DNA of 64,000 nt from Gammaproteobacteria bacterium (GTDB taxonomy: Bacteria > Pseudomonadota > Gammaproteobacteria > Pseudomonadales > Azotimanducaceae), in the NCBI GenBank assembly GCA_021773555.1, contig JAJFKA010000129.1, forward strand, positions 1-64,000. The letters run 5' to 3'. Under the pieces are notes generated by a model that was not told where the DNA came from, searched no databases, and was given only the letters and a program-made list of their open reading frames with translations. This document shows, one piece after another, positions 5,596 to 29,759 of the stretch; position 1 is the first letter of the stretch; each line of letters begins with the position of its first letter. The position numbers and the translations under genes are program-made.

Positions 5596-6570
5596 ATGAT
5601 CGAACCTATGCCAAGAACAAATAGATTGCTTAGCGGAGATCAGGTACGTATCAGGTCCCCGGAGGAGATCCTGCTGACCCTTGATGCGGAAGGCACGCTC
5701 CGAGGGCTTCCGTTCATGCCGGAAATGCTGGATTGGTGCGGCAGAACTTTCCAGGTTGAGCGGAGGGTGGAGAAAGCCTGTGTGGACGCACAACCACTAT
5801 ACTCAAATCGACATTTTCCCGATGATGATGTGGTTATCCTGGCAGGACCACGTTGTGATGGCCGGGATCATGATGGCTGTAATCGCTCCTGTAAAATCTT
5901 CTGGAAAGAAGCCTGGTTAGAACCGGTTGACGGTGCCGTTAGGGTACGGTCGGATTCGGCTGACAGCATCGCCGCGCTGCAACAGCGTTTAAAAGTAAAG
6001 TCAGATGATAGCCACTACTTTTGTCAGTCAACCCAGCTTCGTTTCGCTACAGAGGCTTTCCCGGGTTTTAAAAAACCGTGGATGGTGCGGATTGCGTTCC
6101 GGGAACTGCAGAATGGTGATCGTTCTGCAGCAGAACTCCTGAAACTTTTCTTGTTGTTTATGATGCAAAGACTTCGACGGATCCTTGGAGGTAATAATTT
6201 CCTTCGAGGTCGGAATAAAAGGACGCCTACAGAGTCGCTTGGACTAATCCCTGGGGAAAAAGTTCGCATAAAAAGTCGAATGGAAATTGTTGAGACGCTG
6301 GATGCCAGAAGGCGCAATCGAGGCATGACCGTATGCTACGAAATGACAAGATGTTGCGGTTCAGAAGCAGAAGTTGGAATTCGTGTGCACCGAATAATCG
6401 ACGAACGCACTGGCGAGATGAGGAATCTTCAAAATACCGTGACGCTCGAGAATAAGGGTTGCACTCCTTCAATCGATCACAATGATTGCCTTTGTTACGA
6501 TCAGTTGGGTGATTGTCCGAGAGGCGAAAAATTCTTCTGGCGGGAGATATGGCTTGAACGAATTGATTAG
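5596..6570 (+). CDS. Protein with two copies of a cysteine-containing domain
   Basis: A 324-residue protein made of two related units. Unit 1 (about 12-113) and unit 2 (about 216-323) share the frame G[DE]xVRIxS, EIxxTLDA, RG, EM, CG, RV, a cluster of Cys, then FW[KR]E[AI]WLE. Unit 1 has RCDGRDHDGCNRSCKIFWKE and unit 2 has GCTPSIDHNDCLCYDQLG followed by FFWRE. The conserved Cys/His residues suggest a metal site or disulfides. I recognise the pattern as a recurrent bacterial domain but cannot name a function. A linker (about 114-210) is rich in basic residues. No signal peptide or membrane helix is evident. It stands alone between a long upstream gap and a convergent GNAT gene. Confidence 0.7.
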   Translation: MIEPMPRTNRLLSGDQVRIRSPEEILLTLDAEGTLRGLPFMPEMLDWCGRTFQVERRVEKACVDAQPLYSNRHFPDDDVVILAGPRCDGRDHDGCNRSCKIFWKEAWLEPVDGAVRVRSDSADSIAALQQRLKVKSDDSHYFCQSTQLRFATEAFPGFKKPWMVRIAFRELQNGDRSAAELLKLFLLFMMQRLRRILGGNNFLRGRNKRTPTESLGLIPGEKVRIKSRMEIVETLDARRRNRGMTVCYEMTRCCGSEAEVGIRVHRIIDERTGEMRNLQNTVTLENKGCTPSIDHNDCLCYDQLGDCPRGEKFFWREIWLERID

Positions 6571-7712: not shown

Positions 7713-9944
7713 CTACTCGCCAGGATGGTAGGTGCGTACTGCCCGTTTCTTGACATCCTCCGGGTAGTAAGCCACTTCCTTGAAGCTATGTTCCACATAC
7801 CGCGCAGCCTGGTCATCGAAATGTTCTGATGTGGGATCACCGCTCTGTCCACCGGCGAGTAATGTCCTGGCTTTAACTCGCTCCCCAAATTCAACTACCG
7901 CCACGAAACTGTTTCCTGAGTTGCCATACAATTTTCTGGTGCCGGGATACTGCCGTGCGCCGAACGAAGCCAGGGCACCCCAGCGGCCAGATGCCATGCC
8001 GACAGGCAGACTCGGTGCGTCATCGTCATGAGGTTGCGAGATGTCACCGGTCAGTCGCTGAAATCGATTGACTTCGCCCCAGGGGATTTCCCAGTGGTCA
8101 AAATCTGCCTTCAGACCCGCAATTGTTTTCGAAAAAATGGCCAGGCGTTCCTCATCGGGCGACTGACCACCGAGGTAGTTCACCAGTGCCATGCCGCGAA
8201 GATTCTGCGGATTAAGGCCAACGCCGAGGTAAGTCGTGCCGTAATAATGGGCTAGTGTCATGGCGACGGAATCGGCCGCAACCCGATGATCCCAGGTACG
8301 CAGGTAATCGATGGCAGCAGAAGGATAATCCTGCTTGTTTGCGGAGCGATCGTAGGCGTTGATCAGCCCGGCAATCAGCGCGCTAAACCCGGGCAGGTAG
8401 GGGTCATAGGCGATGTCGATTAGTTTGTCGAGGGTGAGATCTGACTGCCCGGTGAGCATCTGCACCGCATGCAGGCCGCGAAAATTATCTGCTTCCGGTG
8501 CCATGTAAACCGGATAGTCAGCAGGCACGGGGCTGGCACCGGCGGCGGCCGTAAATGGCGTTGAATTGCAATTCTGGATCCAGCCGTTGGCCGGATTAAG
8601 TATCGTGATGATCTCATCAAGGTTGTGAGCGCCCTGCCAGTCGGTTTCCGGATTGCTGCCATCCACTGGTGCCTGGTAGTCGAATTTGACACTTCGTCTG
8701 GGCAGGAAGTTACCGTGGTAGTAGGCGATGTTGCCTTCTGAATCAGCGTACACCGTATTGTTTGAAGAATTTGTGCGGATCGCCATCATTTCGTTGAAAC
8801 CGCGATATCCGGATTGCGTGGTTCGGGTGAATGATTGTTTAAGAGCGTTGACCGGATCCCAGTTAATTTTCGTGGCTACCCACTTACCGTCCAGTTGATG
8901 GGTAATGGGTCCGTGATGAGTGTGGTATGTCTTGAAAGTGCGCTGCTTTAGCTGATCGCCTTGTCTGTAATCCAGTGTCACCTGACCTGTTTTCACCGGG
9001 CGAAGCTCGTCACCATAACGATAAACGAGTTGCCCATCGTGCTGAAACACGTCCTCCACAAACTCATCCATAAAGTCCGCACCCGTTGATGTATGCATCC
9101 ACCCGGTGTTGGCGTTAAAACCCTGGTAGACAAAGAACTGACCCCAGGTCACGGCGCCATAGGCGTTGAGTCCTTGTTCGCTGGAGACATGAATCTCGCC
9201 ACGAAAATAAAATGAAGTGTGTGGATTGATGAGCAGTAGCGTATTACCTGATCGCGTGTGTTCACCTGAGATCGCAAAACCGTTAGACCCCCTGGGTTCT
9301 CTGTCGACACCGCGCTCCTTAATCCATACCTGGGGTGAAACCGCCTGGGGCGCAACAGCCTGGGGTGAAAGGGACGAATCAGCGTGACCTCCATAGAATG
9401 CCTCGATACCCGCAAGGGGAATTTGTTCAATGTCTCCGCCGATAGAACCCTCGAAAAAGAACATCGGCATCCACGGCTCGAATTTATCGATCAACTCAGG
9501 TTTAACCTCAGGATGAGTCGCCAGGTAATAGTTCAGTCCCTCGGCGAAAGCCACGCACAGATCTTGTAACCAGGGGGGTGATGCAGCATAGGCTGACCTG
9601 GCTTCCTGGGTAGTCATATAGAGTCGCGCGCGCAGGTCGCTGTAAATGGCCTGTTTACCGTCAACCTCTGCGAGTCGGCCAATTGCCCACAGATAATTGC
9701 GCTCTATTCGATGAAAGTCGTCCTCAGCCTGGGCGTACAACATGCCGAACACAGCGTCTGCATCGGTTTTTGCGTAAATGTGCGGAATTCCGAAATCGTC
9801 CCGGACAATGGTTACCCGGTTTGCCCGGTCCTCCAATTGCGCAAGGGAGTCATCTGCATTCCGGGTTGTTAATGGCGTCGAGGAGCAGGCGCCCAGCGCA
9901 GCGACCAGGATCAGCAGTGCAGCAATTCGGTTGAACGGGTTCAT
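7713..9944 (-). CDS. Penicillin acylase family lipoprotein (Ntn hydrolase)
   Basis: A 743-residue exported amidase. The N-terminus carries a lipoprotein signal with lipobox LGAC (Cys20) followed by SSTP. The alpha part contains VTIVRDDFGIPHIYAKTDADA and the 'YAQAEDDFHRIE' segment typical of the family. The autocatalytic cleavage point is G|SNGFAISG, making Ser220 the N-terminal nucleophile of the beta subunit. Family members hydrolyse amide bonds of beta-lactams, acyl-homoserine lactones or other N-acyl compounds; the natural substrate here is unknown. The linker before the nucleophile carries a three-copy five-residue repeat (SPQAV/APQAV/SPQVW). Confidence 0.88.
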   Translation of the reverse strand: MNPFNRIAALLILVAALGACSSTPLTTRNADDSLAQLEDRANRVTIVRDDFGIPHIYAKTDADAVFGMLYAQAEDDFHRIERNYLWAIGRLAEVDGKQAIYSDLRARLYMTTQEARSAYAASPPWLQDLCVAFAEGLNYYLATHPEVKPELIDKFEPWMPMFFFEGSIGGDIEQIPLAGIEAFYGGHADSSLSPQAVAPQAVSPQVWIKERGVDREPRGSNGFAISGEHTRSGNTLLLINPHTSFYFRGEIHVSSEQGLNAYGAVTWGQFFVYQGFNANTGWMHTSTGADFMDEFVEDVFQHDGQLVYRYGDELRPVKTGQVTLDYRQGDQLKQRTFKTYHTHHGPITHQLDGKWVATKINWDPVNALKQSFTRTTQSGYRGFNEMMAIRTNSSNNTVYADSEGNIAYYHGNFLPRRSVKFDYQAPVDGSNPETDWQGAHNLDEIITILNPANGWIQNCNSTPFTAAAGASPVPADYPVYMAPEADNFRGLHAVQMLTGQSDLTLDKLIDIAYDPYLPGFSALIAGLINAYDRSANKQDYPSAAIDYLRTWDHRVAADSVAMTLAHYYGTTYLGVGLNPQNLRGMALVNYLGGQSPDEERLAIFSKTIAGLKADFDHWEIPWGEVNRFQRLTGDISQPHDDDAPSLPVGMASGRWGALASFGARQYPGTRKLYGNSGNSFVAVVEFGERVKARTLLAGGQSGDPTSEHFDDQAARYVEHSFKEVAYYPEDVKKRAVRTYHPGE
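9329..9373 (-). repeat. Three-unit 15-bp tandem repeat inside the acylase gene
   Basis: Three imperfect units each beginning CCTGGGG on the plus strand (9329-9343, 9344-9358, 9359-9373) encode SPQAV-like pentapeptides in the acylase linker before the nucleophilic Ser. It is in frame and could vary in copy number without breaking the gene. Confidence 0.7.
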
Positions 9945-10539: not shown

Positions 10540-11460
10540 TCAAGGTGGATGGTGTGCGTACCAGTGCCGGGCAATATCAACACGGCGTGTGACCCAGACA
10601 TCCGGCTTCTCACTGATGTACTTAAGGAACCTGCGCAGGGCTTTGAGCCTTCCGGGTTTGCCGATAATGCGGCAATGAAGTCCGATGCTCATCATTTTGG
10701 GCTGCGTGGCGCCTTCATCAAAAAGTGTATCGAAACTGTCCTTCAGGTAGTTGAGGAACTGATCGCCAGCATTGAATCCCTGGGGTGCCGCGAAGCGCAT
10801 ATCATTGACGTCGAGGGTGTAGGGAATAATGAGATGTGGCTTACCGGTGTGTTTGTGCCAGTAGGGCAGGTCGTCGGCATAAGAATCACTGTCGTAGAGA
10901 AATCCACCGGCTTCAATAATAAGTTTTCGGGTGTTCGGGCTGTCCCGGCCGGTATACCAGCCAAGTGGACGCTCGCCGGTTACCTGCGTGTGAAGTTCGA
11001 TGGCCTTATGCAGATGGTCTCGCTCCTCTTGTTCAGGCATCGACTGGTAGTCAATCCAGCGGTAACCATGGCTCGCAATCTCCCAGTCTGCGGCCAGCAT
11101 TGCCACGACGGCTTCAGGGTTTCTGGCCAGCGCCATGGCAACACCATAAACAGTCACCGGGAATCCAAATTCATTGAACAGCCGGTGCAGGCGCCAGAAA
11201 CCCGCACGACTGCCGTATTCGTAGAGACTCTCCATGCTCATGTGCCGGTCCGGGTAGGCCCGTGCACCGATGATTTCCGACAGGAAGGTTTCTGAACCGG
11301 CATCGCCGTGAAGAACGTTGTTTTCGCCACCTTCCTCGTAATTGATGACGAATTGCACGGCCAGACGAGCACCTTCTGGCCAGTTGGGATGAGGCGGGTG
11401 TTCGCCGTAACCCTTGAGGTCCCTGGGATAGTCTGGTTCAAATTCCGGCTTTTTTGTCAT
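10540..11460 (-). CDS. puuE: PuuE-type allantoinase (polysaccharide deacetylase fold)
   Basis: A 306-residue cytosolic protein of the metal-independent allantoinase family, which opens allantoin to allantoate. Typical segments are YPRDLKGYGEHPPHPNWPEGARLAVQFVINYEEGGE, then GAETFLSEI-like GSETFLSEIIGAR, REYG-like SLYEYGSRAGFWRLHRLF, and ASHGYRWIDYQ of the deacetylase fold. Length matches known PuuE. The allantoicase-like and ureidoglycolate lyase genes 6 kb downstream, then urease, supply the following steps. No transcriptional regulator lies next to it. Confidence 0.92.
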   Translation of the reverse strand: MTKKPEFEPDYPRDLKGYGEHPPHPNWPEGARLAVQFVINYEEGGENNVLHGDAGSETFLSEIIGARAYPDRHMSMESLYEYGSRAGFWRLHRLFNEFGFPVTVYGVAMALARNPEAVVAMLAADWEIASHGYRWIDYQSMPEQEERDHLHKAIELHTQVTGERPLGWYTGRDSPNTRKLIIEAGGFLYDSDSYADDLPYWHKHTGKPHLIIPYTLDVNDMRFAAPQGFNAGDQFLNYLKDSFDTLFDEGATQPKMMSIGLHCRIIGKPGRLKALRRFLKYISEKPDVWVTRRVDIARHWYAHHPP

Positions 11461-11663: not shown

Positions 11664-13082
11664 TTGAAAAGCTGGTTAATCATTGTTTGTCTAGTCTCCT
11701 GTTCCCCCGTGCTATTGGCCAGCGATGAACCAGGTCTCTGGTTCGAGGATCTAAAAGGTTCCGCTGATCGTCAAGCGCTTTATCAGGTTCTCCATGCCAT
11801 GCCGAAGGGTGGCGATTTACACAGTCATTCCTCGGGTGCGGTTTTTTCCGAATGGTGGTATGAGATGGCACTCGAGCAGGCCGCTAACGGTTACGTTTAC
11901 TATACCAAAACCCGCATCATGAACTGTAGAGACTATGGTGGCGATGAGTTCGGGCAGCCTTATCTACTCTACTTTTCCAATATACAGGCGTCCCGCTGGG
12001 CAACATTGAGTGAGTGTGAGCAGGGCGAGTACAAACGTTTGTCGGTTCTAACCAACGTCGAGAAATCCGCCTGGCTGAACAGCATTCGTCTTGATAAGCC
12101 TCATGAAGGGCGTGATGAGTTTTTTCAGGCTCACTGGCAACGTCTGGGTGACCTGACGGCGAATCCCTACCTTGCCGTTGAGGCAGTGGTGCGAAATATT
12201 AAAGCATTCAGCGCCGAGGGTCTGATCTACATGGAGCCGGATTTCAATGTATTCGGAGCCATCAGTGCGGATGGCACACCCGTTCCACCCGACGAGGTTG
12301 CTGAACTGTTACGCGCCCGATTACGCCAGAAGGACGTCACCAACACAGGGATGGTGACGCGTTTTCAACTGGCAATTCTGCGTTTTTTACCTGGTGCACC
12401 GGAACTGCTGAAACCCATCTATACCTTTCTGGACAGTAATCGTGATCTCTGGGTAAGTCTTGATCTGGTCGGCCGGGAGGATAACGATAAGGGTTATCCG
12501 GCGAAGTTCCTTGAGGCATTCCGTGAAGTGCGCCGCACACACCATGGCATCCGCCTGTCAATTCATGGCGGGGAAGTGGATGAGCCCAATCGACATGTCA
12601 GGGATACCCTGATCCTCGGTGCGGAGCGGATCGGCCACGGCGTGAATCTCATTTCCGACCCGGACCTGATGTTGTTGATGCGAGGCGGCCCGTACCTGGT
12701 TGAGGTTAATCTGGTGAGCAATCTGCTGCTCGAGTATGTGACTGACTTCAGTCAGCACCCATTCCCGGAATATCTGCGCCTGGGGATTCCTGTTGCGTTG
12801 TCCACTGATGACCGGGGTATGTGGGATTCCACCATGACCGATGAGTTTTTTGTCGCCGTGATGGAGTTCAATCTTTCCTGGGAGGAAATCAAACAATTAT
12901 CAAGAAACTCGCTGAAGCATGCGTTTGTTTCGGATGAACTTAAAGGTGAATTACTGGCCCGTTACAACAAACGAATTGCCGCATTTGAGCGGAGCATGGT
13001 GCGAGGAGGAATGGCCAGGTTGAATTCACCTGACTGCCGACGTTTTATTCGAAATCATTATGACCTTTGCGGTCAAAACTAG
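11664..13082 (+). CDS. Exported adenosine deaminase-related protein (ADGF/ADA2-like)
   Basis: About 472 residues. The frame is open from 11580, but a TTG at 11664 gives a proper export signal, KSWLIIVCLVSCSPVLLA, with a possible lipobox LVSC, and lies downstream of an extended -10 candidate; start is therefore inferred. The ADA metal and catalytic motifs are complete: KGGDLHSHSSGA, IHGGEVDEPN, ERIGHGVNL and STDDRGMWD. The long insertion after the first motif and the export signal resemble secreted adenosine deaminase growth-factor types rather than cytosolic Add. It would convert adenosine (or a derivative) to inosine in the periplasm or at the cell surface, next to a TonB-dependent receptor and a nucleoside-binding protein. 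Confidence 0.85.
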   Translation: MKSWLIIVCLVSCSPVLLASDEPGLWFEDLKGSADRQALYQVLHAMPKGGDLHSHSSGAVFSEWWYEMALEQAANGYVYYTKTRIMNCRDYGGDEFGQPYLLYFSNIQASRWATLSECEQGEYKRLSVLTNVEKSAWLNSIRLDKPHEGRDEFFQAHWQRLGDLTANPYLAVEAVVRNIKAFSAEGLIYMEPDFNVFGAISADGTPVPPDEVAELLRARLRQKDVTNTGMVTRFQLAILRFLPGAPELLKPIYTFLDSNRDLWVSLDLVGREDNDKGYPAKFLEAFREVRRTHHGIRLSIHGGEVDEPNRHVRDTLILGAERIGHGVNLISDPDLMLLMRGGPYLVEVNLVSNLLLEYVTDFSQHPFPEYLRLGIPVALSTDDRGMWDSTMTDEFFVAVMEFNLSWEEIKQLSRNSLKHAFVSDELKGELLARYNKRIAAFERSMVRGGMARLNSPDCRRFIRNHYDLCGQN

Positions 13083-13226
13083 GGCATAATGGCGATCGCG
13101 CGCACCTTGATGGACCACGGCTGAGCGCATCAGAGTATGGAAGTGAGGCACGGGCACCTGTCTGGAATACAGGGTCTGTTTTCTTCTGAGCGATAGGCGG
13201 GTTGGACAACAATAAATTCGGGCAAC

Positions 13227-13290
13227 TTGACATCACATTCAATATCAATTCGGTAATACCTGGCATCGATCGCACCTGTGGCGCGATAGT
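13227..13290 (+). promoter_or_regulatory. Possible promoter/operator region in the 260-base leader of the receptor gene
   Basis: A perfect TTGACA lies at 13227-13232, but no good -10 hexamer is at standard spacing (TAATAC is too far), so activator dependence is possible. Downstream, ATCGATCGC and GCGCGATAG flank CACCTGTG-like bases as an imperfect inverted repeat. Weak evidence, recorded because the receptor is likely to be regulated by its substrate. Confidence 0.2.
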
Positions 13291-13342
13291 TGCTATGGGA
13301 TTGCAGGAGCGTTTTTTTATTCCACTTGGGGAGGAAGTTTTA

Positions 13343-15796
13343 ATGAAACAAATTAGTCTGTTAAAGCCGGTCCTGGCAGCCATCACGGTCGCCATGGCGC
13401 TTGCTTCGTTTTCAACCAGTGCAGCAGAAATGGAAGAGATTGTCGTCAAAGGCAGTCTTGGCAGTTTGCCGGGAGAAGACGTCGAGTCGATTTTTGGATT
13501 TAACAAGTCGCTGCTTGAAACGCCGAGGTCTGCTTCCACCATTGGTGAGGAGATGATGGAACGTTTCAACATGCAGGATATTGATGAACTGATCGTGCTG
13601 GCACCAGGTACCTTCACCCAGTCGTTCTTCGGCGTGGCGGGCGGACTCGATGTGCGAGGCACACCAGGTGAGACTTATTTTCGCGGCGTTCGACGCCTGG
13701 ACAATCCTGGGAACTATCCGACACCGATTGGTGCATCAGACCGGATTGATATTGTACGCGGGCCAGCATCACCCATTTATGGTCCTTCAAAAATCGGCGG
13801 ATACCTGAATTTCAACCCCAAGTCTGCGCGTGTTGAAGCAACGGGCCAGTTTGTAGAGGCTCCGACGGGTGCGCTTGCCTACACCTTTGGCGACTGGGAC
13901 AAGAGTATTGTCACCGGTGAAGTTGGTGGACCGGGCCGGATTGGAGACCAGGACTTCGGCTATTATTTCTACGGTGAAGTGGAAAATTCAGGCAGCTACT
14001 ACAACAATTCCTCCGTTGACCAGACGCTGGTCCAGGGTTCCTTCGATATGGACCTTAATGACAAGCTGCGAGTCCAGTTCGGAGGTATGTACCACAAATT
14101 TGAAGGTAACCAGATTGCGGGCTGGAACCGCCTGACCCAGGCGCTGATCGACAATGGCACTTATGTTACCGGGCAGCCGTCGCCGCTGGACACCAACGGA
14201 GATGGCTCCATCTCACATCAGGAATTTGATGTGAATGGTGATGGATTTACTGACCTTAATCCGTTTCGATTTGACTTCCTCGGGCCAGACTTTGCGTTAG
14301 CTCCTGGTAGCAACGAAGATCTTGCCACCCTGGAGATCCTGGTGGGTGATCTTTCCCTGCTGCAGTTGAACAACGTCGGTGTGGCAAAACTTGATGGCAG
14401 TGATGTCCTCGTCGCTCCGGATGACACGCTTGAAAATGAGGTCACCACGCTTTATTTCGACGTCATCTACACCACGGACAACGACTGGGAAATCAAGAAC
14501 CAGATGTTCTACGAGTCCTATGACAATCTCAATGAAAATGCCTACGGCTTTTCACAGTTCCACGATAGCTGGGTTTTCGAGAACAAGCTGATTATCTCGA
14601 AGGTGTTCCAGGGCGACTCACTGACGACTTCATTGCAGATTTCTCCCTCGATTCGACACACGGATTTCCGTCATGGGGACGACTATACCAATGAGTATTT
14701 TGATCGCCGTGACCTGACCGGACCGTCGACCGCTCTGGATCGTCGACTGCTCGCGACTCGCATCAATGATGATTACACCGAGTATTACGTGGGCGACTAC
14801 ACGGACCTGGGTCTGGCAGTACTGGCAGACTTCACCTGGGAGAGTGGTTTCAGTGCGCTGATCGGTGTGCGTTACGACACCATTGATATGGAAAGTCGTC
14901 AGCCGGCCGACAAACTGTTGCTCGCCAGTGCCAACAACTTTTGTACCGACGGAACCTGTATTGCGGTCAAAGCCAGCGATGACGTCAATGATATTTCATG
15001 GACCGCAAGTTTCAGTTTCAACAGCGAAATCGGACTCGTTCCTTATATTACAGCGTCTGAGCAGGCCACGGTCATTGCCGGCCAGGGTGCAGAGCTTGTG
15101 ACCTCCAATATCACTTCGGGTGGTGCTTTTGACACCTCTGATCTGTTGGAAATTGGTTTGAAGGGCAGCTTGCTGGATAATTCGCTGTACTTCGCGTTGT
15201 CGGCGTACGAACAGGAACGCACGGATTTTTCAGCTCAGTCGATTGTCACCAACCAGTCAACGAAAACCGAAGGCATTGAGTTTGAAGTGCGCTGGGTGGT
15301 GAGCGAAAACTTGTTGGTAACCCTCGGTTACTCACACATCGAAGTCACTAACCTGAATACCAAAAGCTCTGGCAACCGCTTCAGCTTTATCGGTGCAGAT
15401 GATCTACCCGCACTGCCTGCCGGTGCACTCTATGGAGGAACGCTTGGTGGATTCGTGAGTGCTGGCCCCAGTGGCAGCAGACGAGCGGGAATGCCGGAAG
15501 ACATCTGGTCAGCCACCGCAACCTATAACTTTAATAATGGCATCGCGGTGAGTGGTAGCCTGGTGAATGTGGATTCGGTTTACTCCGGGTTCTCCAATCA
15601 GGTCAAACTGCCGGATTACACGCTGATTAATCTGGGTGTGGTCTACGAAACAGAAAACTGGTTGTTCAGCTTTACCGGTAAAAACCTGACAGATGAAGAG
15701 TATTTTCGATCAAACTTCCCGAATCTGTTTGGTGGCACGATTGTATTGCCGGAATTGCCCAGGCACTTCCAGGGTCGTATTCAGTATCGGTTCTAA
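13343..15796 (+). CDS. TonB-dependent outer-membrane receptor with EF-hand insertion
   Basis: 817 residues from ATG 13343, which has GGGGAGGAAG upstream; earlier in-frame codons lack a signal peptide. Signal peptide 1-28 ends TSAA|EME; the TonB box is EEIVVKG. The plug runs through RSASTIG, LDVRGTPGETYFRGVRR and IDIVRGPASPIYGPSKIGGYLNF, and the barrel ends ...RHFQGRIQYRF with terminal Phe. Residues 283-294 form a canonical calcium EF-hand loop (DTNGDGSISHQE) and 297-302 repeat DVNGDG, which is uncommon in receptors. It would import a substrate across the outer membrane with TonB energy. Adjacent exported adenosine deaminase and NUP genes suggest nucleosides or purines; siderophores, the usual default, cannot be excluded. 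Confidence 0.9.
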   Translation: MKQISLLKPVLAAITVAMALASFSTSAAEMEEIVVKGSLGSLPGEDVESIFGFNKSLLETPRSASTIGEEMMERFNMQDIDELIVLAPGTFTQSFFGVAGGLDVRGTPGETYFRGVRRLDNPGNYPTPIGASDRIDIVRGPASPIYGPSKIGGYLNFNPKSARVEATGQFVEAPTGALAYTFGDWDKSIVTGEVGGPGRIGDQDFGYYFYGEVENSGSYYNNSSVDQTLVQGSFDMDLNDKLRVQFGGMYHKFEGNQIAGWNRLTQALIDNGTYVTGQPSPLDTNGDGSISHQEFDVNGDGFTDLNPFRFDFLGPDFALAPGSNEDLATLEILVGDLSLLQLNNVGVAKLDGSDVLVAPDDTLENEVTTLYFDVIYTTDNDWEIKNQMFYESYDNLNENAYGFSQFHDSWVFENKLIISKVFQGDSLTTSLQISPSIRHTDFRHGDDYTNEYFDRRDLTGPSTALDRRLLATRINDDYTEYYVGDYTDLGLAVLADFTWESGFSALIGVRYDTIDMESRQPADKLLLASANNFCTDGTCIAVKASDDVNDISWTASFSFNSEIGLVPYITASEQATVIAGQGAELVTSNITSGGAFDTSDLLEIGLKGSLLDNSLYFALSAYEQERTDFSAQSIVTNQSTKTEGIEFEVRWVVSENLLVTLGYSHIEVTNLNTKSSGNRFSFIGADDLPALPAGALYGGTLGGFVSAGPSGSRRAGMPEDIWSATATYNFNNGIAVSGSLVNVDSVYSGFSNQVKLPDYTLINLGVVYETENWLFSFTGKNLTDEEYFRSNFPNLFGGTIVLPELPRHFQGRIQYRF

Positions 15797-15821
15797 CACC
15801 TGATCCGGGCTGTAAAATCCA

Positions 15822-15858
15822 GGGGTGGTTATCGGAAACGGTTACCACCCTTTTTTTT
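15822..15858 (+). terminator. Rho-independent terminator after the receptor gene
   Basis: GGGTGGT (15823-15829) pairs with ACCACCC (15844-15850), followed by eight T residues (15851-15858). It lies 26 bases after the receptor stop and just before the NUP gene's SD sequence, so the two may be separated or partly attenuated. Confidence 0.8.
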
Positions 15859-15882
15859 GTTTTTGAATTTTTGGAGGCGAGT

Positions 15883-16929
15883 ATGCGAATAGTTCCGTTA
15901 ACGGCGCTACTGTTGTTGATAAGCAGTTGCGCCACGGTGCCCGGCCCCACACCGCTGCCGGTCAGGGTGGTTGTGGTCACCATGTTCGAAGTCGGGGAGG
16001 ACACTGGCGATCGAGCCGGAGAATTCCAGCACTGGAAGGAGCGCCGTGCGCTGACCTCGATTCTGCCGTTCCCGGGTTATCGCGATTTACACTATGACCC
16101 GAACAGTGAGTTGCTGGTACTGGTGACTGGCATCGGCACAGCAAGGTCCGCGGCAGCCATTATGGCCCTTGGTATGGATAACCGATTTGATCTGACGCGG
16201 AGCTACTGGGTGGTCACCGGTATTGCCGGGTTTGATCCTGAAGATGCAACCGTCGGCTCTGCAGCCTGGGCCGAATACCTGGTTGATGGTGACCTTTCCC
16301 ATGAGATTGATGCACGAGAGAAGCCGGCCGACTGGCCCTTCGGTTATTTTGCACGTTACACCCGGAAACCCTTCGATCCGGAAAAACCATCGCCGACCGG
16401 TGAAATGTACCAACTGGATACCGCGCTGGTTAACTGGGCCTTTGATCTGACCCGGGATATGGAACTGCCGGATGATCCATCGTTGCTGCATATGCGTGAG
16501 CAGTACGTTAACCACCCGAACGCACAGGGGAAACCGAAAGTATTAAAAGGCGACAATCTTGCTGCACTCACATTCTGGCACGGCGCTATCATGAACGACT
16601 GGGCGAATCAGTGGGTGGATTACTGGACCGAGGGTAAGGGCGAATTTGTTTCCTCGGCGATGGAGGAGACCGGGACCTATCTATCGCTTTCCTGGCTGCA
16701 CAAGATCCAGCGGGTCGATGTACAACGGCTGCTGGTACTGCGAACCGGCAGCAACTTCACCATGCAACCTCCGGGTGTCACCGCTGCGGAAAACCTGCTG
16801 AAGGAAAACCAGGGTTATGCCGGGCTGGCGGTTGCAACAGAGGCCGCTTATCTGGTTGCCGCCAGGGTTGTCGATGAACTGTTGGAGAACTGGGATCAGT
16901 ATCGTGATGAATTACCGGGGCATCAGTGA
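15883..16929 (+). CDS. Purine nucleoside permease-type (NUP) exported protein, copy 1
   Basis: 348 residues from ATG 15883, preceded by GGAGG (15873-15877). The N-terminus is a lipoprotein signal (LLLLISSC, lipobox ISSC). The body matches the NUP family: VVVVTMFEVGEDTGDRAGEFQHW, MALGMDNRFDLTRSYWVVTGIAGFDPEDATVGSAAWAEY, TFWHGAIMNDWANQW, VLRTGSNFTMQPPG. The family is named for a fungal nucleoside transport protein, but the fold relates to nucleoside phosphorylase-like proteins and the bacterial versions are exported and soluble or lipid-anchored. It may bind or cleave nucleosides in the periplasm. A paralogue lies at 28653-29759. Its end overlaps the convergent allantoicase-like gene by 7 bases. 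Confidence 0.88.
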   Translation: MRIVPLTALLLLISSCATVPGPTPLPVRVVVVTMFEVGEDTGDRAGEFQHWKERRALTSILPFPGYRDLHYDPNSELLVLVTGIGTARSAAAIMALGMDNRFDLTRSYWVVTGIAGFDPEDATVGSAAWAEYLVDGDLSHEIDAREKPADWPFGYFARYTRKPFDPEKPSPTGEMYQLDTALVNWAFDLTRDMELPDDPSLLHMREQYVNHPNAQGKPKVLKGDNLAALTFWHGAIMNDWANQWVDYWTEGKGEFVSSAMEETGTYLSLSWLHKIQRVDVQRLLVLRTGSNFTMQPPGVTAAENLLKENQGYAGLAVATEAAYLVAARVVDELLENWDQYRDELPGHQ

Positions 16930-18026
16930 CCCGACCCGGGAAGGGAAATGATGTCCGTGCCGAAAACCCTGAGGCCGTGGATGCCACCGTTGGGATAGTG
17001 CATATAGAAAATTACGTTCACCGGCGTATCGGAGTCCATTTTTTCGAATTCGTGCCAGCAGTCGCCCCGCAGGGGAGCAAAACCAATGAGCGGTTGCCAG
17101 GGTGAAGCATCAGGAATATGAAGTTTGATTTCGAATGCCTGGTCCGTTTCCTTCAGGTATTCCTTGTTTTGCATGAACGCCTGAAAATCATCTGGAATCA
17201 CCTGCGCCTGATTGTCATACACAAGCTTCCAACGGGGCAGGGTGGCGAGGGCGTCGCTGAGCCCGCCCGCTTCCAGGTGTGCACCAAAAATATGGCAGCT
17301 CAAGGGGGGGTTCAGTCGATGCAGGTAGGTATCAACGATTATTCGATCGATCCTGACCAGCCTGGGCAGGCTAAAAATGGTGCTCTCGCCAAAGCCGGTT
17401 CGGGCAGATTCCCAACCTACCATATGGTCCACTTCCCGATTGCCGCGGACGGCGTCCGCGGGTTTCCCGTAGTGCTCGTTGGTGGTGTTTGAAATGGCCG
17501 CATCGAGCAATACATTGGGGTGCGCATACAACGCCGACCCGATTTCTCCGAACAGATTGATGCGCGCGATGCCGCCCTCGTGATAACACCTGACGTGACA
17601 ATCTGTGGCCACAGTAGGCGGAATATCCAGGGTTTGTTCTGCATCCGGTGCCAGTGACAGGTGATCGAACACCATTGTTTCGGCGCCGGAATGCCGATCC
17701 CGGAGTACGATCGAAATCTCGGGTACCTGGTTTCCGGTAAACCATTTTGTACTGATCGAGATGCTTGTAACCACCGCGCTGTGGGTGAATCCGATGTCGA
17801 ACCACTGATGAGCCCCGGGGGTGTAGGAAAAGCTTTGTTCATCTGCATTAATTTGTGTGGCGGTGTGCCTGACCGTTTCGAATCCCCAGTATTTAGCACC
17901 CATATGAGTGAAGTTACCCGTACACGCCGGTGGCTCGTCCGGGCGGACTACCTCGTGGGGATTTGTGAAGGAAGAATCTGAATAAGCCTTCAGGAATGTG
18001 GGTAAACGCTCCGTTTTCGTTGGCAT
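16923..18026 (-). CDS. Allantoicase-like protein
   Basis: 367 residues arranged as two repeats of the galactose-binding-like domain used by allantoicase, which splits allantoate into ureidoglycolate and urea. Repeat 1 has YWGFETVRHT, SISISTKWFTGNQVPEISI and CYHEGGIARINLFGE; repeat 2 has DHMVGWESARTGFGEST, RIDRIIVDTYLHRLNPPLS and NGGIHGLRVFGT. The sequence is divergent from classical Alc (for example GFETVR where DGWETRR is usual), so function rests partly on context: it overlaps the ureidoglycolate lyase stop by one base (TGATG) and is followed by urease across a divergent promoter region. Confidence 0.78.
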   Translation of the reverse strand: MPTKTERLPTFLKAYSDSSFTNPHEVVRPDEPPACTGNFTHMGAKYWGFETVRHTATQINADEQSFSYTPGAHQWFDIGFTHSAVVTSISISTKWFTGNQVPEISIVLRDRHSGAETMVFDHLSLAPDAEQTLDIPPTVATDCHVRCYHEGGIARINLFGEIGSALYAHPNVLLDAAISNTTNEHYGKPADAVRGNREVDHMVGWESARTGFGESTIFSLPRLVRIDRIIVDTYLHRLNPPLSCHIFGAHLEAGGLSDALATLPRWKLVYDNQAQVIPDDFQAFMQNKEYLKETDQAFEIKLHIPDASPWQPLIGFAPLRGDCWHEFEKMDSDTPVNVIFYMHYPNGGIHGLRVFGTDIISLPGSGH

Positions 18027-18532
18027 CAGATTTCCAGATTCACGATGAGTTCAGAAGACAGCGTAATCTCATCACAATTCTCGTCTGGCCCACCTCGGTC
18101 AATCACGAGGAAATCAGATATTGAATCAAGCGCCAGGCTGTAGTGATGCCAGGTGCCGGGATGGTAGTTAACGCCTTGCCCGCAGGCCCGGAAAACTCGG
18201 ATATCCTGCTCGCGGAGTTCACCGGCGGGGGCAACGATCACCAGGTAGGGCTTATCCGAGAGTGGATAGAAGGCCTGGCTGGACAGGGGATGTCTCTCCA
18301 GCGTCGTGATCTTCAACGGCAAAGGAAGCGGCGTCGATCGAAAGATGCTCACCAGAGGAACACCCTTATCAGCGGTGAGTGAGAGTGCTGCAAGATTATG
18401 AAAGCGGACCGTGTGACCGTCGTTGATCAAGCGCTGTTCTGCGGCGGTCCCGGTGGTGATTACGTCACCGAAAGGTAAAAAGGCTTCGGGATTGAGATCT
18501 TCGGGGATAAGTTGGTCGGCACGGGTGATCAT
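18026..18532 (-). CDS. allA: Ureidoglycolate lyase
   Basis: 168 residues of the AllA cupin family, which splits ureidoglycolate into glyoxylate and urea. Visible features are LNPEAFLPFGDVI at the start, LPLKITTLERHPLSSQAFYPLSDKPYLVIVAP in the centre, and FRACGQGVNYHPGTWHHYSLAL with the histidine-rich motif of the active site. Length matches E. coli AllA. It is the first gene of a two-gene unit with the allantoicase-like gene (TGATG overlap) and is divergent from ureD, 80 bases apart, so the shared region could coordinate release of urea with urease production. Confidence 0.9.
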   Translation of the reverse strand: MITRADQLIPEDLNPEAFLPFGDVITTGTAAEQRLINDGHTVRFHNLAALSLTADKGVPLVSIFRSTPLPLPLKITTLERHPLSSQAFYPLSDKPYLVIVAPAGELREQDIRVFRACGQGVNYHPGTWHHYSLALDSISDFLVIDRGGPDENCDEITLSSELIVNLEI

Positions 18533-24715: not shown

Positions 24716-26095
24716 TCACGCAGTGTTGACGATCTCATAACAAGGTACATAAGCATCTCCCGGCAGCTTCATGCGTCCTTCTGCGACGAATGACTGAAGC
24801 AACTCATCCATGGCGGCGAGAATCTCCTTGTTGCCACTAATCTTGAAATTGCCATGTTCCTCGACGTATCGGATACCCTCTTCCTTGACGTTCCCGGCAA
24901 CAATGCAGGAGAAGATCCGGCGAAGATCAGCGGCAAGCTGATAGCTGGGCTGGTCTGCGCTGAGACTAAGCCTGGAAACATTTTCCTGGGTGGGTTCGAA
25001 AGGCTGTTGGAACTCATGATGCATTTTCAACATCCAGCTGAAGAAATAGGCATCGCCACGTGACTTTCTGAACTTTCTCACGCGGCGCAAGCCAGCCAGC
25101 AGGGTATTGGCCACGGCTTCGGGATCATCGACGATGATCTCATATCGCTTCTGGGCCTCGCTGCCCAGAGTGCGCCCGATGAATCTGTCGATACGGTTGA
25201 AGTAGTCTCGGTTGGCCTCAGAACCAGCAAACACGATCGGAAAGGGCAACGGCTGATTATCTGGATGAAGCAACACTCCCAGCAGATAGAGAATCTCTTC
25301 CATAGTGCCGGCGCCACCCGGGAAGACGATGATGCCGTGTGCGATGCGTACAAATGCTTCCAGTCGTTTTTCGATGTCAGGCATAATTACCAGCTCGTTG
25401 ACAATCGGATTAGGTGCTTCCGCTCCGATGATGCCGGGCTCCGTAATACCGATGTATCGACCATTACGGATTCTTTGTTTTGAATGTCCAATGGTCGCGC
25501 CTTTCATTGGACCTTTCATTGCACCCGGACCACAGCCAGTGCAAATGTCCATACCGCGAAGACCAAGTTCGTAGCCCACTTCTTTGGTGAATTCATATTC
25601 GTTTCGAGCGATCGAGTGCCCACCCCAGCAAACAATAATGTTTGGGGGCGTTCGTGAACGTAGTACGCCGGCGTTGCGTAAAATATGGAATACCGCATTA
25701 GTAGCGCCCTGCGCTGTATCCAGGTTGAATGCCGGATTGTTAATGATTTCATTGTTGACGTAGACGATGTCTCTTAACACTGCGAACAACAGTTCCTTGA
25801 TCCCTTTAATCATGCGGCCATCAACGAACGCGACTGATGGCGGATTAAGCAACTCGAGGCGAAGACCTCTTTCTTCCTGCAAGACCTTGATGTCAAAGTT
25901 TTCATAATCGCGCAACAATTGCCGCACATCATCGGTGTCGGAACCGCAGTTCAGTACCGCCAGGGAGCACTTTCGAAACAGGTGGTAAAGACCCCCCTGG
26001 CTGGTGTCGAGCAATTTGTTGACCTCATCCTGGGAAAGGATGTCCAGATTTCCCTCCGGTGAAACACGGATGCTGGTTACTGCTAGTTCACTCAT
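24716..26095 (-). CDS. ppnN: Pyrimidine/purine nucleotide 5'-monophosphate nucleosidase PpnN
   Basis: 459 residues. The start at 26095 gives MSELAVTSIRVSPEGNLDILSQDEVNKLL, which matches the N-terminus of E. coli PpnN (YgdH). The LOG/TIR-like core has CWGGHSIARNEYEFTKEVG, CTGCGPGAMKGPMKGATIGH and PGGAGTMEE; the C-terminus ends ...EGRMKLPGDAYVPCYEI as in PpnN. The enzyme cleaves nucleoside monophosphates to base and ribose 5-phosphate and in E. coli responds to (p)ppGpp. It overlaps the end of the upstream phosphoribosyltransferase gene by 8 bases, so a nucleosidase and the opposite (base plus PRPP) reaction are made together. Confidence 0.94.
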   Translation of the reverse strand: MSELAVTSIRVSPEGNLDILSQDEVNKLLDTSQGGLYHLFRKCSLAVLNCGSDTDDVRQLLRDYENFDIKVLQEERGLRLELLNPPSVAFVDGRMIKGIKELLFAVLRDIVYVNNEIINNPAFNLDTAQGATNAVFHILRNAGVLRSRTPPNIIVCWGGHSIARNEYEFTKEVGYELGLRGMDICTGCGPGAMKGPMKGATIGHSKQRIRNGRYIGITEPGIIGAEAPNPIVNELVIMPDIEKRLEAFVRIAHGIIVFPGGAGTMEEILYLLGVLLHPDNQPLPFPIVFAGSEANRDYFNRIDRFIGRTLGSEAQKRYEIIVDDPEAVANTLLAGLRRVRKFRKSRGDAYFFSWMLKMHHEFQQPFEPTQENVSRLSLSADQPSYQLAADLRRIFSCIVAGNVKEEGIRYVEEHGNFKISGNKEILAAMDELLQSFVAEGRMKLPGDAYVPCYEIVNTA

Positions 26096-26690
26096 TGTTG
26101 CTTTCCACTTGAGTTTGTTCGTAGATCGAACCGTGTGCCTGCTGCAGGATTGTGAATAACTCCGGTCGATGACTGTGCATCTCCTCAATACTTAAGCCCT
26201 CGACAGAATGAGGGAATTTCAGCCATTGCGAGGTTTCGTGCAGATAATAGTCCGGGACACGACCGGTCAGGTTACGGGACGGTTTGTAATATGGCACCGC
26301 AACGCGAATGTCGCTCGGGGTGTTTAATCGGGCCCTGGCCCGCAAATGTGTAATCACTGCCTCAATGCTCCTGCCTGTGTCATAGACATCGTCCACGATC
26401 AGTAGTTTATCGGAATGGGTAGTATTTTTTATGAGGTAGTTCATGCTATACACCTGGACTTCCTCGGCTCGGCCATCGATTCCCTGATAGGAAGCCGTGC
26501 GTATCGCGATATGATCTGCATCGACACCCTTGAAGCGCAGTGCTTCCTGCAGCGCGATTCCGATCGGCGCACCGCCGCGCCAGATCGCAAGGATAAAGCT
26601 CGGAGTGAATCCGCTTTTCCACACGTTGACGCCCAGTTGCATGCTGTCTTCGAGTAGTTGTTGTGCGTCAAGGTAGCGTTTTTCTGTCAC
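26088..26690 (-). CDS. Phosphoribosyltransferase, type I fold (copy A)
   Basis: 200 residues. The PRPP-binding motif is KLLIVDDVYDTGRSIEAV and the pyrophosphate loop region is ILAIWRGGAPIGIALQEAL. It belongs to the broad hypoxanthine/xanthine phosphoribosyltransferase-like group, so the likely reaction is base plus PRPP to nucleotide. The base is not determined. Its stop overlaps ppnN. A paralogue starts 53 bases away on the other strand; the two align without gaps through their first 28 residues. Confidence 0.87.
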   Translation of the reverse strand: MTEKRYLDAQQLLEDSMQLGVNVWKSGFTPSFILAIWRGGAPIGIALQEALRFKGVDADHIAIRTASYQGIDGRAEEVQVYSMNYLIKNTTHSDKLLIVDDVYDTGRSIEAVITHLRARARLNTPSDIRVAVPYYKPSRNLTGRVPDYYLHETSQWLKFPHSVEGLSIEEMHSHRPELFTILQQAHGSIYEQTQVESNNE

Positions 26691-26743
26691 GCCGGGTTAT
26701 GCTCCGAGCTTAAAAAATATGCGTGACACTAGGCGAGATATCC

Positions 26744-27328
26744 GTGGATAACAAGCAGTTTATTAGCGAGCAGGACGTGTTGCTGGACGCCTATCGACTT
26801 GGTGTACAGGTATACAATTCGGGCTTCAGACCGAGTTTTATTGTGGGATTGTGGCGAGGTGGGAGCACCGTTGGGATAGCGGTCCAGGAATGTCTCGCGG
26901 CGCTGGGTGTAGGCACTGACCATATCTCGATTCGTACGTCCTACTCAGGCGTAAACCGGTATCAGGAAATGATCAGCGATCCTGAGAAAACGATTCGTGT
27001 TCACGGGACCCAATACCTCCTTGAATCCTTGAATGCATCCGATTCCCTGCTTATTGTTGATGATGTGTTCAGCACGGGATTGAATGTTCAGGCGGTTCTG
27101 ACTCGTCTGCGGCAACGCCTGAAACGTAACATGCCTGCTGACACCAGGGTGGCCAGTCTCTGGTACAAGCCGGGTCATCGGCGCACTGAGGGCAAACCCG
27201 ATTTTTATTTACACGAAACCGAGGACTGGCTTGTGCTTCCTTATGAGCTGTGTGGTTTGAGTGAGTCCGAGCTCCGATCACACAAGGACTGGGCGTTCAG
27301 GATTCTGGACAACAAACCGGACTTATAA
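26744..27328 (+). CDS. Phosphoribosyltransferase, type I fold (copy B)
   Basis: 194 residues from GTG 26744. This start is chosen over GTG 26723 because the protein then aligns residue for residue with copy A ([21 protein letters not shown] against TEKRYLDAQQLLEDSMQLGVN) and because AGGCGAGA lies just upstream. The PRPP motif is [19 protein letters not shown]; copy A has DTGRS where this has STGLN, so the two may differ in base or activity. [22 protein letters not shown] is shared at the C-terminus. Its last codons overlap the stop of the convergent transporter gene by 6 bases. Confidence 0.85.
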
Positions 27329-28534
27329 AGACAGAAACAGCCCGGCCAGTGCGGCGCTCATCAGGTTGGCGAGGGTCGCGGCAAACACTGCTTTTAGTCC
27401 CAATCGGGCGATTTCGTCTCTGCGTTCCGGGGCCATCGCACCGATCCCGCCCATGAGTATTGCGATACTGGAAAAATTTGCGAATCCACAAAGCGCGAAG
27501 GTAACGATCGCCTGTGTATGTGGGGACAAGCTGTCTTTCTGCCCGATGAAGTCAAGGTAGGCGACGAATTCATTTAACACCAGTTTCTGGCCGATCAGGC
27601 TACCCGCAGCATTGGCTTCAGCCCAGGGTACTCCGAGGACAAAAGCCACCGGCTGGAACAGGTAGCCGAGCAACACCTGGAAAGTTACACCGCTGGCTCC
27701 CGCGAAACCACCCAGCCAGCCGATAATGCCGTTAAGCATGGCGATTAGCGCGATGAACGCGAGCAGCATGGCGCCAACATTCAGTGCTATCTGCAGTCCG
27801 AAGCTGGCGCCGGAAGCCGCAGCATCAAAAACATTGGCATAAGGTTTGGGCTCGTCAGACAATTGCTCGAGTTCGTTCTTGGGTTCTGCTGTCTCCGGGA
27901 CGAGTATTTTTGCCATCAGCAAGGCGCCGGGTGCCGCCATAAAACAGGCCGCCAGCAGGTAGGTCATTTCAATTCCCATGGCCGCGTAACCTGCCAAAAC
28001 CGAACCAGCGATTGAGGCGAGACCGCCGACCATCACCGCGAACAACTCTGATTGTGTCATTGAAGGGATGAACGGCCGAACAACGAGGGGTGCTTCGGTC
28101 TGGCCGACAAATATATTGGCTGCCGCAGACATGGACTCTGGCCTGCTGGTTTTCAGCGCCAGTTGCAGTACACCACCGATAAGTCGGACGACCCAACCCA
28201 TAATGCCCAGGTGGTAAAGAACGGCGATCAGTGATGAGAAAAAGATGATGACCGGGAGCACCTGGAAGGCGAAGATAAAACCCATGGACTCGCTGCTGCC
28301 AATCTGGCCGAACAGGAAATCGATTCCCTCCTGGGAGTAGGTGAGTACATTGGAAACACCGATGGCGATGACTTCGAGAAGCTGCTTTCCAGCAGGCAGA
28401 TAAAGTACAAAAGCGCCAATCAATACCTGGATAAGGAATGCGCCAACGACCGTACGTGGATTGATTCGTGCTCGATTAGAAGAGGCAAGGTATGCAACCC
28501 CAAGGATAAGGGCAACGCCGAGCAGGCTGATCAT
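27323..28534 (-). CDS. Concentrative nucleoside transporter (NupC family)
   Basis: 403 residues, about eight to ten membrane helices. CNT signatures are [54 protein letters not shown] and the C-terminal [21 protein letters not shown]. It would import nucleosides across the inner membrane with Na+ or H+. The SD AAGGAAA precedes ATG 28534. It stands between the phosphoribosyltransferase/PpnN genes and the second NUP gene, completing an uptake and salvage set. Confidence 0.94.
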
Positions 28535-28652
28535 GTTGTTTCCTTTTTGCTGGTTTTTGTTCTGAAATCAGAATCAACCTGGAACAGAAGTACGCCGATA
28601 ATAGATGTTGAACAATCGCGGTGCTTTGTAAAGAATGTAGCAAGATTCAATC

Positions 28653-29759
28653 ATGGCAACAACCGGGATTTTAATGCTGCATTCTCCTTCGAGCTTTCTG
28701 AAAAAAATCTGTCACTGCACCTGCATCGCGCTCCTCTATGCTAGCCCACCGGCATCAGCGTCGACGGATGCGATACCGGTCAAGGTGGTGGTCGTCACTA
28801 TGTTCGAAAATGGTGAGATCACCGGCGATAAACCTGGAGAATTTCAGTTCTGGGTTGAACGGCTTGGACTCGATAAAGAGTTTGAGTTTCCGCTGGGTGA
28901 ATATCCTCTGCGAATGAATGAGGCAGGAGTTCTCGGCATTTGTCTGGGTGGCGGAATTCCGAATGCGACGGCTTCGACGATGGCACTGGGTCTGGATACT
29001 CGCTTTGATTTGTCCAGGGCGTACTGGCTGATAACCGGGATTGCCGGTGGTGATCCTGAGGACGTGTCGCTTGGATCTGCGGTATGGGCTCGCTGGGTCA
29101 TTGACGGCGATTTGTTGTACGAAATCGATGCCCGGGAAATTCCGGAATCCTGGCCTTATGGAATGATTCCGCTCGGTGCAAGTAAACCCACTACACGGTC
29201 CGAGGATCTGCTTAACGGGTGGTCCGTGGATACCATTGCGTATCAGCTCAACAGTGAACTGGTTAACTGGGCTTATCAGACCAGTAAGGATACAAGGATT
29301 GAAGATGGGGTTGGCATCAGCCGTTTTCGCCAACAGTTCTCCGGAGTCGCGAGTAAACCGCCGTTCGTCATAATGGGCGAAACGCTTTCATCAAGCACCT
29401 ATTGGCACGGGGAGTTGATGAATCAGTGGGCGAATGACTGGGTACGTTTACACAGCAGCCCTGACATGAATTTCATGACGACGAATATGGAAGACAGTGG
29501 CACCCTTACCGCGATCTCTCGCCTTGCCCGACGCGGGCTGGTAGATTCGCAGCGGGTACTGGTGCTCCGTACCGCCAGTAACTTCACAGTGCCACCACCC
29601 GGACGGGACGCTGCCTGGAGCAGTACTGCACCTTATCCGGACGAGGGACTACCGGCAAAGGAGTCAGCTTTTACTGTCGGTAATGTTGTGGTACAGGCAT
29701 TGCTCGCGAACTGGAAGGAAAATCGGGACAAGATACCGTCGGTGAAAGATCAGAGATAA
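28653..29759 (+). CDS. Purine nucleoside permease-type (NUP) exported protein, copy 2
   Basis: 368 residues from ATG 28653 or 361 from ATG 28674; neither has a strong SD, and the second gives the tidier signal peptide (LKKICHCTCIALLYASPPASAS). The mature part shares with copy 1 VVVVTMFENGEITGDKPGEFQFW, LGLDTRFDLSRAYWLITGIAGGDPEDVSLGSAVWARW, STYWHGELMNQWANDW and VLRTASNFTVPPPG. Copy 1 is a lipoprotein while this one appears to be freely periplasmic. It is divergent from the nucleoside transporter gene, which suggests a delivery or processing role for nucleosides in the periplasm. Confidence 0.86.
   Translation: MATTGILMLHSPSSFLKKICHCTCIALLYASPPASASTDAIPVKVVVVTMFENGEITGDKPGEFQFWVERLGLDKEFEFPLGEYPLRMNEAGVLGICLGGGIPNATASTMALGLDTRFDLSRAYWLITGIAGGDPEDVSLGSAVWARWVIDGDLLYEIDAREIPESWPYGMIPLGASKPTTRSEDLLNGWSVDTIAYQLNSELVNWAYQTSKDTRIEDGVGISRFRQQFSGVASKPPFVIMGETLSSSTYWHGELMNQWANDWVRLHSSPDMNFMTTNMEDSGTLTAISRLARRGLVDSQRVLVLRTASNFTVPPPGRDAAWSSTAPYPDEGLPAKESAFTVGNVVVQALLANWKENRDKIPSVKDQR

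Follow-up and report, generated by a model that had tools for sequence, protein, structure and literature searches.

Marine bacteria take up dissolved nitrogen derived from phytoplankton, of which nucleosides form an important part (PMC8027193, PMC9870897), and the passive Tsx channel was the only outer-membrane nucleoside route found in the literature searched (PMC11658791). Tsx of E. coli (cited in PMC11658791), a nucleoside-specific porin, is like the locus proposed here in providing a way for nucleosides through the outer membrane; it is passive, however, whereas the receptor of this locus is of the TonB-dependent type. No report of a TonB-dependent nucleoside transporter was found in our literature search, with subscription papers and preprints lying outside that search. 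Polysaccharide utilisation loci share the architecture of a TonB-dependent receptor, exported degrading enzymes and an inner-membrane transporter, but they act on glycans, whereas the unit considered here would act on purine nucleosides and no SusD-like partner was found. If true, a TonB-dependent nucleoside route would add a substrate class to the TonB-dependent transporters.

Gene content of the locus and its surroundings

The window is the whole stretch of DNA that was analysed, 64,000 nucleotides corresponding to bases 1-64000 of contig 34 in a 5.2 Mb draft genome. An earlier note had described three consecutive plus-strand genes for an exported deaminase, a TonB-dependent receptor and a NUP lipoprotein; all three were confirmed at 11664-13082, 13343-15796 and 15883-16929. 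Its reading of the flanks and neighbourhood as pointing to purines also held, with genes for PuuE, allantoicase, AllA and urease close by and purine-catabolism genes across the wider window. The features were as follows.

302-1324, minus: adenosine deaminase without an exported N-terminus, cytoplasmic (PF00962, E 5.6e-76)
1462-2841, plus: NCS2 xanthine/uracil-type permease, candidate inner-membrane base importer (PF00860, E 1.1e-64)
10540-11460, minus: PuuE-type allantoinase (TIGR03212, 534 bits, above cut-off)
11664-13082, plus: exported ADGF/ADA2-like adenosine deaminase (TTG start, signal MKSWLIIVCLVSCSPVLLA, MPKGGDLHSH motif)
13343-15796, plus: TonB-dependent outer-membrane receptor, 817 aa, proposed purine-nucleoside transporter (PF07715 Plug, E 9.3e-12)
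13433-13453, plus: TonB-box-like segment EEIVVKG just past the receptor signal peptide, read from the sequence
14189-14224, plus: EF-hand-like loop DTNGDGSISHQE in the receptor (pattern in 11 of 12 aligned receptors)
15821-15857, plus: terminator-like hairpin with a T8 run between receptor and NUP (fold -20.6 kcal/mol, z -2.2)
15883-16929, plus: NUP-family lipoprotein, lipobox ISSC, predicted periplasmic nucleosidase-fold enzyme (PF06516)
16923-18026, minus: allantoicase (PF03561, E 1.3e-25)
18026-18532, minus: ureidoglycolate lyase AllA (PF04115, E 1.5e-49)
27323-28534, minus: CNT concentrative nucleoside transporter, candidate inner-membrane nucleoside importer (PF07662, E 3.1e-81)
28653-29759, plus: second exported NUP (PF06516, E 4.6e-98)

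Urease genes, read from translated open reading frames, lay beyond those for allantoicase and AllA, and the wider window also carried PpnN. The genome contained two NUPs in total, both inside the 64-kb window. Contig 179 of this genome carried a gene with a urate oxidase N-domain, and a xanthine dehydrogenase-type molybdopterin-binding subunit was encoded about 4 kb away.

The hairpin between receptor and NUP (15821-15857), although not listed by a simple terminator scan, indicates that the three genes are not simply one transcript, and it was counted against the purine-nucleoside reading of the locus. The NUP gene is therefore probably attenuated or separately transcribed. A shared regulatory motif or operator was sought and none was found, which was counted in the same way. 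The palindrome CCGAACNNGTTCGG, which had appeared to be an enriched operator, was rejected, as it codes for NFPNLFG near the receptor C-terminus.

Linkage of the receptor to purine genes across genomes

Co-occurrence of the receptor clade with NUP and exported adenosine deaminase genes, suggested earlier as a check on the nucleoside reading, was borne out by linkage in 80 receptor loci, by 58 related genomes and by Sphingobium. The 80 loci came from a collection scan and were mostly marine gammaproteobacterial assemblies, with isolates of Alteromonas, Sessilibacter and Marinibactrum; neighbours were counted as BLAST-labelled genes within 9 kb of the receptor. Outside an orphan subclade there were 49 receptor loci: 34 had NUP in their neighbourhood, 32 had the exported deaminase and 43 had at least one purine gene. 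In the 25 of these flanked on each side by 8 kb or more of sequence, the respective counts were 17, 17 and 22, compared with 0 of 17 for the orphan-subclade loci with 8 kb on both sides (p = 4e-6 for NUP, relatedness of loci being ignored). Gene order varied while linkage persisted: PuuE/ADGF-TBDR-NUP-cADA, NUP-ADGF divergent from TBDR with AzgA, AzgA-TBDR-NUP-ADGF-NUP and ADGF-NCS2-TBDR-NUP were all observed.

The orphan subclade was monophyletic and fully supported in the receptor tree. Its 32 rows comprised 31 of the 80 loci and a single receptor taken from a related genome, whereas the ingroup branches that split off earlier, and the receptor of the window, were mixed or purine-linked. None of these 31 orphan loci had a purine neighbour, which counts against the purine-nucleoside reading and is why the purine assignment should not be applied family-wide to these receptors. 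Three loci of the purine clade with full flanks (L082, L111, L115) also lacked a purine neighbour and were counted in the same way. At four orphan-subclade loci (L095, L098, L099, L113), a dihydroorotate dehydrogenase gene directly followed the receptor (Pfam check at L095 only), and three of the four carried a tandem pair of receptors; a different ligand may be bound at these loci.

Strong receptor relatives (35-67% identity) were present in 10 of the 58 related genomes, the window's own included; beyond these, match scores fell from above 420 bits to below 46. Receptor clade and NUP were both present in 8 genomes and both absent from 45 (p = 3.5e-6). The two genomes with the receptor only (G010 and G016), whose receptor relatives had no NUP, count against the purine-nucleoside reading; of the three with NUP only, two were congeneric with the window's genome, and one of these two had its NUP at a contig end. 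Outside this sample, the unit recurred in several more distant gammaproteobacteria and on a conjugative megaplasmid of Sphingobium sp. V4 (L151, NZ_CP081002.1), with the order NUP-deaminase-TBDR-NUP-NCS2 and a receptor of 52% identity, indicating that it is transferable between lineages. When 274 gammaproteobacteria were searched with a profile, no genome other than that of the window gave the receptor. This rarity is a rough estimate, because few candidates per genome were scored and later NUP-led sampling found receptor relatives beyond those of the profile search. Overall, a purine-related role for the receptor lineage is very likely, and nucleosides are its fairly likely ligand.

Nucleosides are small enough for general porins, and the case for active import is more readily made when a molecule is larger or scarcer, a point that favours another purine compound as the imported ligand. 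Nucleotides, short oligonucleotides, free bases or allantoin-like products might be carried in, the periplasmic enzymes acting on breakdown products. Consistent with this, base permeases, guanine deaminase-like genes, urate oxidase and allantoin genes are found among the neighbours besides the nucleoside enzymes. However, the most consistent neighbours of the receptor, the exported adenosine deaminase and the nucleosidase-fold NUP, act on nucleosides, and no exported nuclease or nucleotidase was found among the frequent neighbour clusters (families tallied in at least 6 loci). We regard another purine ligand as rather unlikely and keep nucleosides as the preferred reading.

The receptor and siderophore receptors

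The receptor has the Plug domain and barrel of the TonB-dependent superfamily (fold matches at E ~1e-25), and in the receptor alignment its TonB-box-like segment is kept as EEIVV/VVV. The barrel in a moderate-confidence model resembled those of FhuA, Fiu and PiuA; the plug region was poorly modelled, and the structure gave no information on the ligand. The EF-hand-like loop is a possible calcium site in the barrel.

The receptor shares a 22-strand-type barrel with plug, a TonB-box-like segment and the fold matches with siderophore receptors (TIGR01783; FhuA, Fiu, PiuA, FptA). These were its fold-closest solved proteins, a result counted against the purine-nucleoside reading, and together with weak similarity to TIGR01783 and to a pyochelin receptor they favour an ordinary siderophore or metal-chelate receptor standing beside purine genes by chance. 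However, its TIGR01783 score of 96.4 bits was far below the cut-off of 223.5, identity to the solved members was 9-14%, and the context was one of purine genes without Fur-box enrichment: best Fur-box matches upstream of the receptors averaged 11.35 of 19, compared with 11.10 in shuffled sequences. Siderophore genes beside the receptor clade, named in the earlier note as evidence that would tell against nucleosides, were looked for, and no siderophore-synthesis genes recurred in the receptor neighbourhoods of the 80-locus survey. The linkage to purine genes also outlasts several rearrangements and recurs in Sphingobium. Moreover, this fold does not imply iron, because PqqU/YncD, the TonB-dependent PQQ receptor, belongs to the same fold class and shows that a siderophore-like barrel can serve to import a non-iron metabolite, although it shows only 12% identity to the window's receptor and its gene context is unrelated. 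Chance placement of a siderophore or metal-chelate receptor is very improbable. If nucleoside import is true, many receptors now annotated as siderophore receptors would be corrected.

The exported enzymes and a proposed purine-nucleoside pathway

The deaminase matched PF00962 (E 2.7e-36, 125.7 bits), and its nearest solved protein (best PDB match) was the AGSA-type ADGF of Aplysia. It resembles ADGF/ADA2 (CECR1) proteins in the MPKGxxLHxH motif, the metal and catalytic residues, export and an invariant cysteine pair; it differs in scoring below the curated TIGR01431 threshold (95.6 bits against 315), and for that reason we use the label ADGF-like. The catalytic set HxH, HxGE, GHG and DD of adenosine deaminases was intact. 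In an alignment with 17 relatives, the zinc and catalytic residues H53, H55, H301, E304, H325, D382 and D383 were invariant, as were C88 and C118 in the alignment of relatives, which is expected for an exported protein. A hydrophobic N-terminus was present in 26 of 28 deaminase relatives compared with 0 of 6 cytoplasmic ADAs, and a lipobox in only 1 of the 28. Because orthologues carry signal peptides and almost never a lipobox, the enzyme is probably soluble and periplasmic, acting after import; the deamination at the cell surface previously proposed was not borne out.

The NUP lipoprotein matched PF06516 with 360.6 bits (Pfam cut-off 27), and a hydrophobic N-terminus was found in all 35 NUPs checked. 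Its AlphaFold (AF2) model, predicted with high confidence (pLDDT 92, pTM 0.92), was a soluble alpha/beta fold, and the 50 best PDB matches were MTA/SAH nucleosidases (MTAN) and futalosine hydrolases (Foldseek E ~1e-12 to 1e-10, including 3e-12; TM (target) ~0.7), placing it in the NP-I fold. Since this confident model matches such enzymes, NUP is probably a nucleosidase that splits nucleosides in the periplasm. The Met-Glu ribose-binding motif of MTAN aligned with Met-Glu of NUP, and the position of the MTAN catalytic Asp197 was Asn in 30 of 30 aligned NUPs, both in a weak profile alignment (E 0.09). NUP also differs from its NP-I relatives in being an exported lipoprotein of about 320 aa with insertions. 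The Asn sets NUP apart from MTA/SAH nucleosidases proper and was counted against the proposed chemistry. In other NP-I enzymes, Asn at the catalytic Asp site goes with 6-oxopurine substrates; if the Asn gives NUP such a preference, this would account for the retention of a neighbouring deaminase. In many other proteobacteria, NUP genes occur by themselves with no receptor nearby, indicating that NUP does not require the receptor.

The transporter role formerly given to NUP does not hold up. A true nucleoside carrier, binding or transport protein partnering the receptor would fit the finding that a Candida albicans NUP allows a yeast adenine auxotroph to grow on adenosine (PMC9431476). In that study, NUP did not make cells sensitive to toyocamycin, whereas CNT did, which the authors read as transporter selectivity (PMC9431476); in our reading, not theirs, these results also fit a nucleosidase releasing adenine outside the cell. 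No membrane-spanning bundle was found in the predicted model of the mature protein, and its soluble, nucleosidase-like fold makes a permease very unlikely and leaves little likelihood for any carrier function. If the nucleosidase reading is true, the NUP family would be reassigned from permease to exported nucleosidase.

The locus is likely to be a purine-nucleoside utilisation unit, for which we infer the following order of steps. Driven by TonB, the receptor would bring purine nucleosides, or compounds closely derived from them, through the outer membrane. In the periplasm, the ADGF-like enzyme would deaminate adenosine to inosine, and the NUP lipoprotein would split inosine or guanosine into base and ribose. 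The base could then enter the cytoplasm through the NCS2 permease (AzgA in other genomes), and intact nucleoside through CNT. Xanthine dehydrogenase, urate oxidase, PuuE, allantoicase, AllA and urease would finally release the nitrogen of the base. The core of the small unit that had been drawn around the receptor is well supported by linkage, co-occurrence and Sphingobium; surface deamination and transport by NUP are the parts that did not stand. More broadly, we lean slightly towards a model in which a family of TonB-dependent receptors, present in marine gammaproteobacteria and on an alphaproteobacterial conjugative megaplasmid, actively imports purine nucleosides together with a periplasmic deaminase and a periplasmic nucleosidase misnamed as a permease, a nested subclade having moved to other ligands. 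The unit has cultured carriers, Alteromonas confluentis and Sphingobium sp. V4, in which it is directly testable.

Animal ADGF/ADA2 enzymes act on extracellular adenosine signals, and on this analogy the exported enzymes might serve signalling or detoxification of extracellular adenosine instead of nutrition. Nutrition is the role suggested by their linkage to base permeases and to a complete purine-catabolic route, and we consider a signalling or detoxifying role extremely improbable.

Three further observations were made in the window. At 24716-29759, PpnN, a phosphoribosyltransferase, the CNT transporter and the second exported NUP form a further nucleoside cluster, which two congeneric genomes (L174, L175) also retain. 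The gene at 7713-9944, beside purine genes, encodes a member of the penicillin-amidase family that weakly resembles PvdQ and has a lipobox-like N-terminus, and the open frame at 5596-6570 (324 aa) had no match in Pfam.
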